A DNA stretch of 64,000 nucleotides from an uncultured Veillonellaceae bacterium (GTDB taxonomy: Bacteria; Bacillota; Negativicutes; Selenomonadales; Selenomonadaceae), in the NCBI GenBank assembly GCA_945949525.1, contig CAMFES010000001.1, positions 35,323 to 99,322 of the forward strand, in the 5' to 3' direction. The translations under genes and the position numbers were made by a program. Numbering within the stretch: the first letter of the stretch is position 1; the number at the start of each line of letters is the position of its first letter. Below are positions 34,510 through 62,894 of this stretch, one piece after another. A model generated the notes under the pieces. It ran no database searches. It was not told where the DNA came from and saw only the letters and a program-made list of their open reading frames with translations.

Positions 34510-35400
34510 ATGACAAACATGAGAGAACAGACCTTCGGAGTAGAGATTGAGATGACAGGGATTACGAGAAGCAGGGCAGCAAAGACCATCGCCGCCTACT
34601 TCGGAACCGAGGAAGAACACTACGGCGGCAGCTACGATGCCTACCAGGCAAAAGACCAGCAGGGAAGAACCTGGAAGGCCATGAGCGACTCAAGCATCAG
34701 AGCACAGAGGAAGGACGGCTCAAGCGCGACCAGCCTTTACAGAACCGAGGTGGTAACCCCAATCCTTAGATACAGCGACATCGAGGACCTGCAGGAAATC
34801 CTCAGAAAGCTCAGAAAAGCAGGAGCGGTTGTAAACGAAAGCACAGGAATTCACATCCACATCGGAGCAGAGAATTTCACCCCCGCCACCCTTTGCAACC
34901 TCCTCAAAAACATCAGAAGCAAGGAGGACATCCTTTACAGGGCCTTGAGAGTAGGGGCAGGCAGAGCAAGGTACTGCAGAAAGACCAATCAGAAGCTCAT
35001 TGAGATGATTGAAAGCCACCGCCCAGCAACAAGGCAGAAGCTTGCAGACCTCTGGTACGCAGAAGCTCCTTACGGAAGGAACGACCATTACAACAGCAGC
35101 AGATACCACGGACTTAACCTCCACGCCTACTTCACCAAGGGAACGGTTGAGTTCAGGCTTTTCAACAGCACCCTCCACGCAGGGGAACTTAAGGCCTACA
35201 TACAGTTCTGCATGGCGGTTACCGCAAAGGCGGTAAATACCAGGAAGGCAAGCTCAAAGCCAAGCAGCAGCGACAACGAAAAATACACCTTCAGATGCTG
35301 GCTTCTCCGCCTTGGCCTTAACGGAGACGAATTCAAGACCTGCAGGTTTCACCTTTTAAAGCACCTTGAAGGCAACAGCGCCTGGAGGCACCTTTCCTAG
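34510..35400 (+). CDS. Amidoligase-family enzyme
   Basis: TFGVEIEMTGITRSRAAKTIAAYFG, TEVVTPILRYSDIEDLQEILRKLRKAGAVVNESTGIHIHIG, GTVEFRLFNSTLHAGELKAYIQF. Confidence 0.9.
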   Translation: MTNMREQTFGVEIEMTGITRSRAAKTIAAYFGTEEEHYGGSYDAYQAKDQQGRTWKAMSDSSIRAQRKDGSSATSLYRTEVVTPILRYSDIEDLQEILRKLRKAGAVVNESTGIHIHIGAENFTPATLCNLLKNIRSKEDILYRALRVGAGRARYCRKTNQKLIEMIESHRPATRQKLADLWYAEAPYGRNDHYNSSRYHGLNLHAYFTKGTVEFRLFNSTLHAGELKAYIQFCMAVTAKAVNTRKASSKPSSSDNEKYTFRCWLLRLGLNGDEFKTCRFHLLKHLEGNSAWRHLS

Positions 35401-56555: not shown

Positions 56556-57041
56556 ATGACTACGGAACAGATTCTGATTATGCTTGCAACCGCCGCCCTG
56601 AGTTTTTTCTCTGGCAGGGCACAGAGCATGGCAAATAAGCATGATGCCGCAGTGGAAGCAAAGGAGAAGCTATTTCAGGATATGCTGGAGAACCAGAAAA
56701 AGTTCATTGCCTGGCAGGAAGAAATGAACAAGCAGAATGCTGAAATGCGGCAGGAACTTAAGGAGCTTAGGGTAAGCGTGAATCGCATTGCAAGCGGCGG
56801 CCTTGTTCTCCTTCGTGACCGTATTATCCAGTCCTGCAGGGCATTTATTGAACGCGGCAAGATTACCATCACCGCCCGGAACAACATCCGTGATATGTAT
56901 AAATGCTACCATGATGAGTTTAATGGCAACGGAGATGGTGAATACTACTACAATGAGATGATGGGGCTTCCTATAGACCAGGATGTTCCTATTGTCTCTC
57001 ATTTTCCGCTTGGGGGAGAAGTCTATGATAGAAAGAATTAA
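56556..57041 (+). CDS. Membrane-anchored phage protein of lysis module
   Basis: N-terminal TM segment then coiled coil. Confidence 0.55.
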   Translation: MTTEQILIMLATAALSFFSGRAQSMANKHDAAVEAKEKLFQDMLENQKKFIAWQEEMNKQNAEMRQELKELRVSVNRIASGGLVLLRDRIIQSCRAFIERGKITITARNNIRDMYKCYHDEFNGNGDGEYYYNEMMGLPIDQDVPIVSHFPLGGEVYDRKN

Positions 57042-57204
57042 TGTGCCTGATGTGATTGTGGTGGTAGCATTGTCTGCTGCCTTAATCATCAGTATATATG
57101 GAGGCCTTAACGAACTTAGCATGAGTATTGCTAGTGGTCTCTTAGGTTATATTGGCGGTGCTGGAAAGCACAGCTTTGAAAAGAAGGGAGAGAAGTATTT
57201 ATGA
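57025..57204 (+). CDS. Small holin-like membrane protein
   Basis: VPDVIVVVALSAALIISIYGGLNELSMSIASGLLGYIGG directly before endolysin. Confidence 0.6.
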   Translation: MIERINVPDVIVVVALSAALIISIYGGLNELSMSIASGLLGYIGGAGKHSFEKKGEKYL

Positions 57205-57737
57205 TGGTATTTATTAACGCGGGACACGCACCAAACGGTCATCCAGATCCTGGAGCCTGCAGCAGAAGCACAGGCCTTAGGGAGTGTGATGTGGCATTGA
57301 AGGTAGGGGAGCTTGTTGCAAAGTACCTTAATGCTGTGGGGATTGAAACAATGGTTCATCAGAATGACAGCCTGTCTGCGGTCTGCTCCAGGGCGAATTC
57401 CTTGGAGGCAGACCTTTTCATTTCCATCCACTGCAACAGCGTAGAGTCACCTTATGCAGAGGGCACAGAAACCTGGTATTGCAATGGTTCTAGCGCTGGA
57501 AGGATGCTTGCTGAATGTATTCAGGACCAGATTGTGAATTCACTTAATACAGTAGATAGGGGAATCAAGGTAGCAGTGCCTGGGCGGAATGGTCTTTATG
57601 TCCTCACCAATACGGATATGCCGGCGGTCCTTGTAGAGCTTGCCTTTATCTCCAATGAGGATGATGAGAAGCTCCTGAGAAATAATCAGGATGATTTTGC
57701 AAGGGCAATCGCAAGAGGTGTAACAGATTATTTATAA
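57201..57737 (+). CDS. N-acetylmuramoyl-L-alanine amidase (endolysin)
   Basis: VFINAGHAPNGHPDPGACSRSTGLRECDVALKVGELVAKYL, FISIHCNSVESPYAEGTETWY, ALPVLVELAFISNEDDEKLL-type motif. Confidence 0.93.
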   Translation: MMVFINAGHAPNGHPDPGACSRSTGLRECDVALKVGELVAKYLNAVGIETMVHQNDSLSAVCSRANSLEADLFISIHCNSVESPYAEGTETWYCNGSSAGRMLAECIQDQIVNSLNTVDRGIKVAVPGRNGLYVLTNTDMPAVLVELAFISNEDDEKLLRNNQDDFARAIARGVTDYL

Positions 57738-57747
57738 GGAGGGAACT

Positions 57748-58110
57748 ATGAATGCTAAAAAGATATTGGTGGCTTCTCTGCTTGGCTTTGCTGTCGGTGC
57801 CGCAATTGTCCTTTGCTTCAGAGGCTGTGGAGCCGATGTACATGGTGACGGAGAGCGATCTGACGAGGTTAGAACAGAACTTGACGGAGCTGTCCGAAAT
57901 CAACAGCAGTCAATCAGTGACCTTAGAGAAGCAGAAGGAACAGCTGATGGAATCGGACAGACAGTTACAGCAGGCCGAGGAGAAGTACAGTCTGCTATCC
58001 AGTCAAATGAAAAACTTGGAGAAGGAAATGCTAGAGCAGCAGAACTCATTGGAGAATGCCAGGATATACTTCGAGGAATTCGCCAGAGAGGAACAATTGA
58101 AGAGAGATAA
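57748..58110 (+). CDS. Dual-frame lysis ORF A (N-terminal TM plus helical domain; spanin candidate)
   Basis: MNAKKILVASLLGFAVGAAIVLCFRGCGADVHGDGE...; RBS AAGGAGGG. Confidence 0.65.
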   Translation: MNAKKILVASLLGFAVGAAIVLCFRGCGADVHGDGERSDEVRTELDGAVRNQQQSISDLREAEGTADGIGQTVTAGRGEVQSAIQSNEKLGEGNARAAELIGECQDILRGIRQRGTIEER

Positions 58111-58180
58111 GCTGAAGCGTGAGAAAACGGTAGCATGGATTATAGCCGGTGTGCTTCTGTGTGCATGTATAGCTAAATGA
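57752..58180 (+). CDS. Dual-frame lysis ORF B (signal peptide, coiled coil, C-terminal TM; spanin candidate)
   Basis: MLKRYWWLLCLALLSVPQLSFASEA...coiled coil...TVAWIIAGVLLCACIAK; start 4 nt after ORF A start. Confidence 0.75.
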   Translation: MLKRYWWLLCLALLSVPQLSFASEAVEPMYMVTESDLTRLEQNLTELSEINSSQSVTLEKQKEQLMESDRQLQQAEEKYSLLSSQMKNLEKEMLEQQNSLENARIYFEEFAREEQLKRDKLKREKTVAWIIAGVLLCACIAK

Positions 58181-58185
58181 CTAAT

Positions 58186-58233
58186 AGGCCTGCTTGGGGA
58201 ATTATTGAATCGCCCAAGCAGGCCTATTTTTAT
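58186..58233 (+). terminator. Late operon terminator
   Basis: AGGCCTGCTTGGG-N14-CCCAAGCAGGCCTATTTTTA. Confidence 0.9.
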
Positions 58234-59757: not shown

Positions 59758-59778
59758 TAGCGGTTTAGAGTGATATAT
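59749..59778 (+). promoter_or_regulatory. TTTAGAG-type promoter (copy 4) before serine recombinase genes
   Basis: TTGCAA-N18-ATATAT with GTTTAGAGTG in spacer. Confidence 0.65.
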
Positions 59779-59799
59779 AGTGAGGGAAGGAGGCTTGTT

Positions 59800-61350
59800 A
59801 TGAAGATTACTAGAATGCTGCCTAAAGCATTGCCTGAATTGTTTGTTCTGAAGAAAGTTGCCGCATATGCAAGGGTATCTGTGGAAACCGAGAGGATGCA
59901 CCATTCCCTTTCGGAACAGGTCAGTTATTTCAGTGAGCTGATACAGTCAAATCCTGCATGGGAATATGTCGGTGTGTATTGTGATGAAGGTATCAGCGGT
60001 ACAAAAACAGACTCCCGTAAAGAGTTCCAGCGCATGATAGCTGACGCGGAAGCTGGAAAGATAGACATCATCCTTACAAAATCTATATCACGTTTTGCAA
60101 GAAACACGGTTGACCTTCTAAAGACAGTAAGATACCTCAGGAGCATAAATGTAGAAGTGAGATTTGAACGCGAAAACATCAATACACTTTCTACAGAGGG
60201 TGAGTTCTGGATTACAGTACTTGCAGCTTTTGCGGAAGCAGAAAGCGATACAACCAGTACAAATATTAAATGGGCTTTAAGAAAGAGATTTTCACAAGGA
60301 ATCCCAAGTGGAGCAGGAATTTATGGATATAGGCGTGAAGGGAGCGATTATAAGGTTGTTCCAGAAGAAGCTGCTATTGTTAAGCTGATATTTGAGAACT
60401 ACCTTAATGGCATATCTGCAGAACGCACGGCCGCACAGCTGAATGAGCAAGGGGTACGCTCTTATACAGGTGGTGATTTCAGCCCATGCTCCATAAGGGA
60501 TATGCTGTCAAACATTACCTACACGGGAGATTTGCTTTTGCAGAAAGAGTATGTTACCGATGACCTGCTCCGAAAGAAGGTCAAGAATAATGGCGAAGTA
60601 CCAAGATTCTATGTGAAGAATAACCACGAGCCTATTATCGACCGCGCAACTTTCGATAAGGTGCAAGAACGTATAGTGCAGAGGCGTGAAGAGCTGGTAT
60701 TCAGAAAGCCGGATATTCCTATTTATCCATTTACACAGAAAATGGTTTGTGGAATATGCGGAAGTACATATTGGAGAAGTGTTCGCCCTAGAACAAGGGC
60801 TGTTACATGGATTTGCAGGAAAAGGAGTAAGAATGCTGATGACTGTAGGGGAAGAATTATACCTGAATATGACCTCAGACGGGTAGTAGGTGAGATTTTT
60901 GGTGAGTGGACGGAAGATGATGTCAGAGAGCAGATTGACCAGATTACAGTAATTGGCGAAGATAAACTTAGCTTTAAAATGGCAGATGGAAGGGTTATAG
61001 AGAAAACATGGAAGCCTATGAGCCGCCATAAGAAATGGACTCCAGAGCGCACGAAAAACAATTCAAGAAAAAGAGGTTTTTCTATATTCAGCGGAATGGT
61101 TATCTGCGGAAAATGTGGAGGAACATATCATAACCGCAAGAAGCGAGCTGTAAATTATTGGCGTTGCTGTAATGCGCGTTATGGTTGTTCTGGAAAGAAT
61201 GTCTATACGGATTTTCTGAATGCAATCACAGAAGGATACTTAGAGGAATTGGATTTGACTGATATCTCAAGGATACTGAAATATGATGATTGCCTAATAT
61301 TTGAATACAATGATGGCAGAAGGGAGAAGGTTACATGGAAAGAGTTGTAA
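59800..61350 (+). CDS. Large serine recombinase 1
   Basis: AAYARVSVETERMHHSLSEQVSYFSELI, DEGISGTKTDSRKEFQRMIADAEAGKIDIILTKSISRFARNTVD, zinc ribbon. Confidence 0.96.
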   Translation: MKITRMLPKALPELFVLKKVAAYARVSVETERMHHSLSEQVSYFSELIQSNPAWEYVGVYCDEGISGTKTDSRKEFQRMIADAEAGKIDIILTKSISRFARNTVDLLKTVRYLRSINVEVRFERENINTLSTEGEFWITVLAAFAEAESDTTSTNIKWALRKRFSQGIPSGAGIYGYRREGSDYKVVPEEAAIVKLIFENYLNGISAERTAAQLNEQGVRSYTGGDFSPCSIRDMLSNITYTGDLLLQKEYVTDDLLRKKVKNNGEVPRFYVKNNHEPIIDRATFDKVQERIVQRREELVFRKPDIPIYPFTQKMVCGICGSTYWRSVRPRTRAVTWICRKRSKNADDCRGRIIPEYDLRRVVGEIFGEWTEDDVREQIDQITVIGEDKLSFKMADGRVIEKTWKPMSRHKKWTPERTKNNSRKRGFSIFSGMVICGKCGGTYHNRKKRAVNYWRCCNARYGCSGKNVYTDFLNAITEGYLEELDLTDISRILKYDDCLIFEYNDGRREKVTWKEL

Positions 61351-62894
61351 CAGCCTTACCTGTTATAAAAAGGCAGGAAAGTGTAAAGCAGAGGAAAAAT
61401 CGCAAAGTAGCAGCCTATGCCAGAGTATCCACTGATGCAGAAGAACAGCTTACAAGCTACAATGCACAGGTGAAGTATTATTCTGAACATATTAAGCATA
61501 GAGACGATTGGGAGTTTGCAGGAATCTATACCGATGAGGGAATATCCGGTACCAGTACAAAACATCGCGATGGCTTCAATCAGATGGTGAAGGACGCGCT
61601 GGACGGAAAGATTGATCTTATCATTACAAAGTCAGTCAGTCGTTTTGCAAGAAATACTGTGGATACTCTGGTGACAGTCAGAAAACTTAAGGAGCATGGC
61701 GTTGAGGTGTATTTTGAAAAGGAGAATATCTACACCATGGACAGCAAAGGGGAACTGCTCATCACCATAATGTCCTCGCTTGCGCAGGAGGAGTCACGCA
61801 GCATTTCAGAAAATGTCAAATGGGGTCATAGGAAACGCTTCAGGGACGGCAAGGCCAGTGTTGGCTTTGGCCGTTTTCTTGGCTATGACAGGGGAGAGGA
61901 TGGCTCCTTTAAGGTAAACCATAAGGAAGCAGAAATTGTAAGGCTCATCTATAAGATGTTCCTTTTAGGTATGGGCTATAAAAGTATTGCCACAGAGCTT
62001 ATGGAGAGAGGAATCAAGAGCCCAGGCGGCAAAGATAAATGGCATATAAATACCATTAGAAGCATCTTGACCAATGAGAAGTACAAGGGTGACGCCCTCT
62101 TGCAAAAGTCTTATACAGCTGATTTTTTGACCAAGAAGATAGTCAAGAATAAGGGGGAGGTTGAGCAGTTTTATGTTGAAAATAGCCATGAAGCTATAAT
62201 AGATAGAGAGATGTTTGATATGGTGCAGGCGGAGATTGAACGGCGCTCTGGTGCCAAGAGCAGGTACAGCAGCTCAAACATTATTGCTGGCAGGCTGAAA
62301 TGCAGCGACTGCGGTTCCTGGTTCGGGGCAAAGGTTTGGCATTCCAATGACCGGTATCGCAGGGTGATATTCAGGTGTAATCATAAATTTGAAGGGGGTC
62401 GGATTTGCAGTACTCCTCATGTAACCGAGGAGCAGGTGAAGGAGAGCTTCATAGAATTTGTGAACAGGCTACTATTTAATAGGAAAGAAGTTGTTGAAGG
62501 TTTACGGCAGATAAAGATGGCGCTCTTTTGTACAGAAGGGCTGCAGGACAAGCTAAAAGATGCCGAGGAATACATGGCAGAGCTTGCTGAGGCTGCCGCT
62601 AGATACATAAAGGTTAATGCCAGTGAGCGCATTGACCAGTCAATCTACAAAGCAAGGTATGAAGCACTCAGCAAGGAATACCAGCAAGCCAAGACGGAAA
62701 AGGAAGGATATGAAAAACAGCTTGAGAATAACAGCCAAAAGGCAGCTGTTCTGGATGATGTGATAGCAAGCCTTGATAAGCTGGATGAAATTGAGGAGTT
62801 TGATGAAAAGCTATGGGTGGCGCTGATAGAATTTGCCACTGTGGGCAAAGACGGAAACATCACCTTCACCTTGCGGGGAGGTATAGAGGCGTAA
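61335..62894 (+). CDS. Large serine recombinase 2
   Basis: AAYARVSTDAEEQLTSYNAQVKYYSEHI, DEGISGTSTKHRDGFNQMVKDALDGKIDLIITKSVSRFARNTVDTL, zinc ribbon, coiled coil. Confidence 0.96.
   Translation: MERVVTALPVIKRQESVKQRKNRKVAAYARVSTDAEEQLTSYNAQVKYYSEHIKHRDDWEFAGIYTDEGISGTSTKHRDGFNQMVKDALDGKIDLIITKSVSRFARNTVDTLVTVRKLKEHGVEVYFEKENIYTMDSKGELLITIMSSLAQEESRSISENVKWGHRKRFRDGKASVGFGRFLGYDRGEDGSFKVNHKEAEIVRLIYKMFLLGMGYKSIATELMERGIKSPGGKDKWHINTIRSILTNEKYKGDALLQKSYTADFLTKKIVKNKGEVEQFYVENSHEAIIDREMFDMVQAEIERRSGAKSRYSSSNIIAGRLKCSDCGSWFGAKVWHSNDRYRRVIFRCNHKFEGGRICSTPHVTEEQVKESFIEFVNRLLFNRKEVVEGLRQIKMALFCTEGLQDKLKDAEEYMAELAEAAARYIKVNASERIDQSIYKARYEALSKEYQQAKTEKEGYEKQLENNSQKAAVLDDVIASLDKLDEIEEFDEKLWVALIEFATVGKDGNITFTLRGGIEA

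Follow-up and report, generated by a model that had tools for sequence, protein, structure and literature searches.

We describe two phage genes, A and B, that overlap out of frame directly behind the endolysin gene of a prophage in a diderm Firmicutes host. It is near certain that both are genuinely coding and that selection acts on both frames, and the pair is probably a new kind of outer-membrane-breaking device in bacteria without the usual lipoprotein-sorting machinery.

Anatomy of the locus

The window, a stretch of 64,000 nucleotides from an uncultured Veillonellaceae bacterium, comes from an Anaerovibrio-like host of the Selenomonadaceae (Negativicutes). The same prophage harbors helicase, terminase, portal, and tape-measure genes. 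Coordinates, lengths, and frames of A and B, their overlap, and their single ribosome-binding site are exactly those given by the first-pass annotation (Table 1).

Table 1. Features of the lysis region in window coordinates
Feature	Position	Strand	Description
Small hydrophobic protein	57028-57204	+	58 aa; probable holin from position and two hydrophobic stretches, without family match
Endolysin, Amidase_3 (N-acetylmuramoyl-L-alanine amidase)	57201-57737	+	Pfam PF01520, E = 1.3e-42; phrog_435 endolysin, E = 2.5e-59
Shared Shine-Dalgarno AAGGAGGG	57736-57743	+	Overlaps the endolysin stop codon (57735-57737)
ORF A	57748-58110	+	120 aa; predicted N-terminal TM helix (type II), periplasmic domain with heptads and coiled coil, conserved C-terminal motif LIxECQxILxxIRxRG
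ORF B	57752-58180	+	142 aa, +1 frame of A; predicted SPI-type signal peptide, YxITExELxxLE motif, long coiled coil, C-terminal hydrophobic segment ending in Lys
Dual-coded A/B overlap	57752-58110	+	359 nt
Single-coded 3' part of B	58111-58180	+	Encodes the C-terminal hydrophobic anchor
Hairpin followed by a T-run, directly 3' of B	58183-58232	+	Probable operon terminator; fold -31.6 kcal/mol, z -6.5

The two start codons lie 4 nt apart (ATGAATG) behind a single Shine-Dalgarno, with spacers of about 4 and 8 nt to A and B, respectively, as read from the sequence. Within the overlap, the third codon positions of B are the first positions of A, and the third positions of A are the second positions of B. 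A terminates roughly where the single-coded tail of B begins; this part measures 52 to 82 nt in most homologues, with a mode of 64.

Both frames are under selection

Synonymous shuffles were performed in both directions. When B was re-coded with the codon usage of neighboring genes, frame A was open in only 0.4% of the trials (107 distinct overlaps), and permuting the codons of B within the gene left it open in 10%. In the reverse test, B was open in 1.3% (neighboring usage) and 17% (within-gene permutation) of the A-synonymous trials. Furthermore, the real A beat all 40 shuffles against the A profile in 106 of the 107 loci, with a median of 80 bits compared to 29 (permutation) and 10 for the shuffled sequences. 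The openness of A in real loci is partly given by construction, the stretch having been taken from the A match, and the independent part of this evidence consists of the scores and of the recovery of both frames at all loci (see below).

We also ran across homologues the dual-frame codon-substitution analysis that the first-pass annotation had proposed, and both frames proved to be constrained. Among the close pairs that were compared, substitutions at B codon positions 1, 2, and 3 numbered 407/451/647 in the overlap (27/30/43%) versus 521/373/1495 in the adjacent upstream genes (22/16/63%). In 22 of the 23 informative pairs, the B frame had a lower dS than the upstream gene; for the window and the named relative nearest to it, the values were 0.31 and 1.50, respectively.

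The proteins encoded by the two frames were also compared with what synonymous change would give. The TM hydropathy of A was 2.69, compared to a B-synonymous null median of 1.38. Both proteins are heptad-periodic, the heptad power of A being 9.1 versus 3.5 under B-synonymous resampling, and their heptads are phase-locked at the DNA level as a 21-nt periodicity in two frames (R = 0.96, 100 loci). A/B is also a deep example from nature of one DNA segment that encodes two coiled coils with their heptads locked in phase.

Taken together, the shuffles in both directions and the substitution pattern reject an artefact or a one-frame origin, and support the view of the first-pass annotation that both products look real. 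It is hardly credible that only B functions, with A as a conserved by-product of the composition of B and of the genetic code: the profile scores are stronger for B and part of the A score is inherited, permutations of B still giving a median of 29 bits, but real A scores far above its shuffles, is seldom open in them, and exceeds the null in hydropathy and heptad power, while the third positions of B, which are first positions of A, are suppressed and the B-frame dS is lowered. The converse, a functional A with B as its by-product, is just as implausible, since A alone would suit an i-spanin and B lacks a lipobox, but B is conserved past the overlap in its single-coded C-terminal anchor (K or R last in 89 of 102 homologues), its signal peptide and YxITExEL motif are conserved, and it too is rarely open after A-synonymous shuffling. 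Synonymous codon usage gave no distinction as to which frame is the older.

The pair is conserved throughout Negativicutes

The first-pass annotation had made the case for two genes depend on both frames being conserved in homologues, and they are: A and B were both present, overlapping, and in the same +1 phase at 110 of 110 homologous loci from about 80 genomes of many Negativicutes families. The overlap is usually 300 to 400 nt. These loci comprise 100 fetched loci, the window, and nine loci from named records. Nearly all of the fetched loci were picked from B matches alone, the exceptions being two (L222 and L223) picked with both genes known; since the loci share ancestry, tests across them are not independent events. 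The A and B profiles, run separately, match the same places across Negativicutes, and only a few copies were broken or clipped by contig ends (L116, L118, L151, L221, and G003:C80). The closest named relatives carrying the pair are Anaerovibrio lipolyticus, Anaerovibrio sp. JC8, and Pectinatus cerevisiiphilus.

Across 399 genomes sampled over the phylum, every match to the B profile (E <= 1e-9) fell within Negativicutes, and none fell in the genomes outside it, which number approximately 384, a figure read off the listing order. No match to the pair was found in the 50,697 phage records of INPHARED, and profile searches of the PDB with A and B returned generic coiled coils only, such as tropomyosin.

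Two genomes (G064 and G080) carry four or more separate copies of the pair at different places, which suggests several related prophages. One locus (L117) lies on a contig titled as a 'Lachnospiraceae bacterium' MAG; its pair is 99% identical in DNA to the Pectinatus pair, and the contig is probably mis-binned.

Near-coincident start codons and proposed dual initiation

The first-pass annotation had called the near-coincident starts unusual. This holds with respect to embedded spanins but not within the class-wide A/B family, where a near-coincident start pair behind one Shine-Dalgarno is the commonest arrangement (63 of 108 loci). The most frequent offset is 4 nt (ATGaATG, ATGtATG, GTGaATG, and TTGaATG), followed by -2 (ATGTG, TTGTG, and GTGTG); starts outside these two classes were assigned by a rough heuristic.

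Dual initiation from one Shine-Dalgarno has been shown for E. coli AUGUG/GUGUG sites, and the Thermus rnpA-rpmH pair (AUGGAUG) combines the 4-nt geometry with dual initiation; the latter was named as the sole bacterial case described before that study (PMC9841429). Given these precedents, the near-coincident arrangement is mechanistically workable, and we infer that A and B are translated by dual initiation at this locus, so that a single mRNA segment would yield both through the alternative use of starts 4 nt apart.

Like the A/B pair, the Thermus and E. coli sites have two starts 4 or 2 nt apart, one Shine-Dalgarno, and two out-of-frame products. Unlike it, they belong to other genes in cellular genomes, and they lack a class-wide phage family, a role in lysis, and a pairing of two envelope proteins. 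The hallmarks of dual-initiation overlapping genes, namely, two starts a few nucleotides apart behind one Shine-Dalgarno and selection on both frames, were both found in the window and in its homologues. A/B would add a case of dual initiation at near-coincident starts that is widespread and backed by evolutionary evidence.

Protein A resembles an i-spanin

The N-terminal TM segment ascribed to A by the first-pass annotation is well supported across homologues, in which the median N-terminal uncharged hydrophobic run is 19 residues and the remainder is coiled coil. A is thus predicted to be a membrane protein of type II whose coiled coil lies in the periplasm, a topology that would fit the description of an i-spanin. 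Cysteine is frequent in its C-terminal ECQ motif.

Protein B is a predicted exported helix without a lipobox

A signal-peptide-like N terminus had also been proposed for B. A signal is indeed present, but in the window it looks like one of the signal-peptidase-I type (SFA/SEA) and not like a lipoprotein signal. The lipobox [LVI][ASTVI][GAS]C is absent from the window B and occurs in only 3 of 102 B homologues, and no lipobox candidate was found on the sense strand between 20 and 63 kb of the window. We also considered B as a lipoprotein because many homologues have a conserved cysteine near the signal end (GTCSA, GICSA). This was rejected: these are not lipoboxes, position -1 being T, I, M, or F, and the window has SFASEA, without cysteine. 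Judging from the aligned motifs, the cysteine more plausibly belongs to an SPI site with Cys at -3.

The long coiled coil of the first-pass annotation was recovered. AlphaFold predicts residues 34 to 141 of B as one continuous helix (pLDDT mostly above 90); modeled this way, it would comprise about 108 residues and extend about 16 nm if straight. The hydrophobic C terminus, annotated as a TM segment, is likewise present but short (median uncharged run of 12, KD15 of 1.79), and from its composition, including the terminal K or R, it resembles a short anchor of the inner membrane more than one of the outer membrane. This would leave the pair without an obvious outer-membrane anchor. A and B may lie in parallel and bridge the envelope, the tail of B being inserted in the outer membrane, or they may lie antiparallel, both rooted in the inner membrane.

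In two lineages (L182 and L183/L227; 3501-3953 in L227), the B tail is replaced by beta-like sequence. The L227 protein ends in VILGYKFKF, which resembles the beta-signal of outer-membrane proteins, and these beta-tailed forms are possibly outer-membrane-anchored variants. Such an anchor in the L227 tail was not supported by AlphaFold, which gave it a pLDDT below 50, and no Pfam anchor family matched.

The pair is linked to the lysis cassette

In agreement with the position after the endolysin recognized in the first-pass annotation, A and B directly follow an Amidase_3 gene in the window, and the adjoining upstream ORF encodes a peptidoglycan hydrolase in about 60 of 83 loci. The families involved vary: Amidase_3 (21), Amidase_2 (18), GH25 (14), VgrG3-like (4), and others, including glucosaminidase and M15. 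In about a quarter of the loci, the chosen upstream ORF is not a recognized lytic enzyme. This linkage to hydrolases of varying families indicates that the A/B pair is a lysis module, and its persistence while the endolysin family changes fits a module whose action on the envelope comes after that of the endolysin.

In two viral contigs (L229:3045-3455 and L230:2973-3401), the gene ahead of the pair resembles, by eye, an L,D-transpeptidase fold and is perhaps an unrecognized type of endolysin.

The hosts have an outer membrane but no Lol pathway

The first-pass annotation had reasoned that a need for spanins would fit a diderm host. The host is indeed diderm, Omp85 being present in its own genome and in 60 of 61 relatives. 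LolA and LolB were found in none of 61 genomes, while the E. coli control scored. This is in agreement with the reported lack of LolA and LolB homologues in any Negativicutes genome (PMC5007114) and with a study of Veillonella parvula in which outer-membrane lipoproteins or Lol homologues were not identified (PMC10665443). In such hosts the known route for taking an o-spanin lipoprotein to the outer membrane would not be available, which we offer as a possible reason why B has no lipobox.

Veillonella MlaD and OmpM (PMC10665443, PMC10628300) provide a parallel, as envelope proteins of Negativicutes in which direct trans-envelope helices or coiled coils replace lipoprotein-dependent functions. 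Unlike A and B, these are host proteins with beta-barrels and other functions.

Comparison with known spanins

The first-pass annotation suggested an embedded pair of the Rz/Rz1 type. This was borne out for A, which has i-spanin topology, but not for B, which lacks a lipobox, starts together with A, and outruns it. Like lambda Rz/Rz1 (Kongari et al. 2018, PMC6139136), A/B sits in the lysis cassette after the endolysin, includes one predicted inner-membrane protein (A), in which an N-terminal TM is joined to a periplasmic coiled coil, and has an out-of-frame partner on the same strand, in the +1 phase as in lambda and T7. Unlike Rz/Rz1, the partner has no lipobox, and both proteins are coiled coils. 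The start geometry differs as well: about 70% of embedded Rz1-type o-spanins start at 0.4 to 0.5 of the i-spanin gene (PMC6139136), whereas A and B start within 4 nt of each other behind one Shine-Dalgarno. Moreover, B is longer than A, extending 70 nt beyond it, and the host lacks a Lol system.

B also shares features with unimolecular spanins of the T1 gp11 type (PMC6139136), namely, an N-terminal export signal, a C-terminal hydrophobic segment, and a place in the lysis cassette. It differs from them in lacking a lipobox, in having a helical coiled coil instead of a beta-rich periplasmic domain, and in the constant presence of the overlapping partner A.

Measured against two-component spanins, the pair thus has the predicted i-spanin topology, the lysis-cassette position, and the out-of-frame overlap, and lacks the o-spanin lipobox. 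Out-of-frame embedded or overlapped genes make up two of the three known spanin architectures, and the start geometry of A/B differs from that of known embedded spanins. Because B fails the lipobox test for both o-spanins and u-spanins, we filed the pair under neither two-component nor unimolecular spanins. Single members match PHROG 'Rz-like spanin' profiles weakly (E = 2e-4 to 7e-4), at the level of generic coiled-coil similarity.

The A/B family is not in the Kongari survey, the text of which mentions neither Firmicutes nor Selenomonas nor Veillonella (PMC6139136), and a recent spanin survey filters on the lipobox (PMC12596118). Negativicutes phages thus appear to lack spanins because spanins have been defined and searched for by the lipobox. 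We found no paper on the lysis genes of Negativicutes phages.

A probable lipoprotein-free, spanin-like system

We consider it likely that A/B is a lipoprotein-free, spanin-like, two-component outer-membrane disruption system of the lysis cassette, with both proteins made; a spanin function as such we judge likely to a similar or slightly lesser degree. A role in outer-membrane disruption is supported by the retention of the pair across endolysin families and by its restriction to a diderm class. The two proteins would interact, bridge the envelope, and serve as the last, outer-membrane step of the cassette. A would sit in the inner membrane through its N-terminal helix and extend its coiled coil into the periplasm. 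B would be exported by Sec and, once its signal peptide is removed, form a long helix that ends at its C terminus in a short hydrophobic anchor; its coiled coil and that of A probably associate. After removal of the peptidoglycan by the endolysin, A and B would pull the two membranes towards each other and disrupt the outer one as spanins do. No lipoprotein would be involved, in keeping with hosts without the Lol pathway.

With slightly more confidence than doubt, we further propose that the pair represents a class of its own, a two-component outer-membrane disruptor without a lipoprotein that phages of Lol-less diderm Firmicutes evolved. Its coiled-coil rods would be encoded in two frames of one 21-nt heptad-periodic DNA, and their ratio would be set by the ribosome's choice between starts 4 (or 2) nt apart that share one Shine-Dalgarno.

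Both frames might instead be translated as part of the lysis cassette and work at the inner membrane, where they would regulate the endolysin or form a holin/antiholin pair, without any role at the outer membrane. The inner-membrane-like hydrophobic segments of both proteins (N-terminal in A, C-terminal in B), the lack of a lipobox and of a classic outer-membrane anchor in most lineages, and the tight endolysin linkage would all suit such a pair. We nevertheless regard it as unlikely, since a small holin-like gene, distinct from A and B, is already found ahead of the endolysin gene, such a role would explain neither the long coiled coils of the periplasm nor the confinement to a diderm class seen across the phylum sample, and two lineages have beta-like B tails, one with an outer-membrane-protein-like end (GYKFKF).

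Small exported membrane proteins often serve in superinfection exclusion or surface modification, and A/B could be a dual-coded phage pair with such a non-lysis envelope function during lysogeny. This is rather improbable given that the pair lies directly after the endolysin gene and before a strong terminator, and that lytic enzymes precede it at most loci whatever their family.

If the spanin-like reading is true, the A/B family shows how phages rupture the outer membrane of bacteria that do not sort lipoproteins by Lol. It opens direct experiments in cultured Negativicutes or on the lambda Rz/Rz1 complementation platform.

Other genes of the prophage

Upstream of the holin-like gene, the window encodes a 161-aa protein with an N-terminal TM and a coiled coil (56556-57041), which matches PHROGs 4105 and 4257 of unknown function. 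An amidoligase-like gene (34510-35400; phrog_2443, E = 1.4e-102) lies among the prophage genes ahead of the terminase. Downstream of the lysis genes and adjoining the prophage end are two large tandem genes (59770-62894; 526 and 519 aa), assigned by eye from their translations as serine-recombinase-like.
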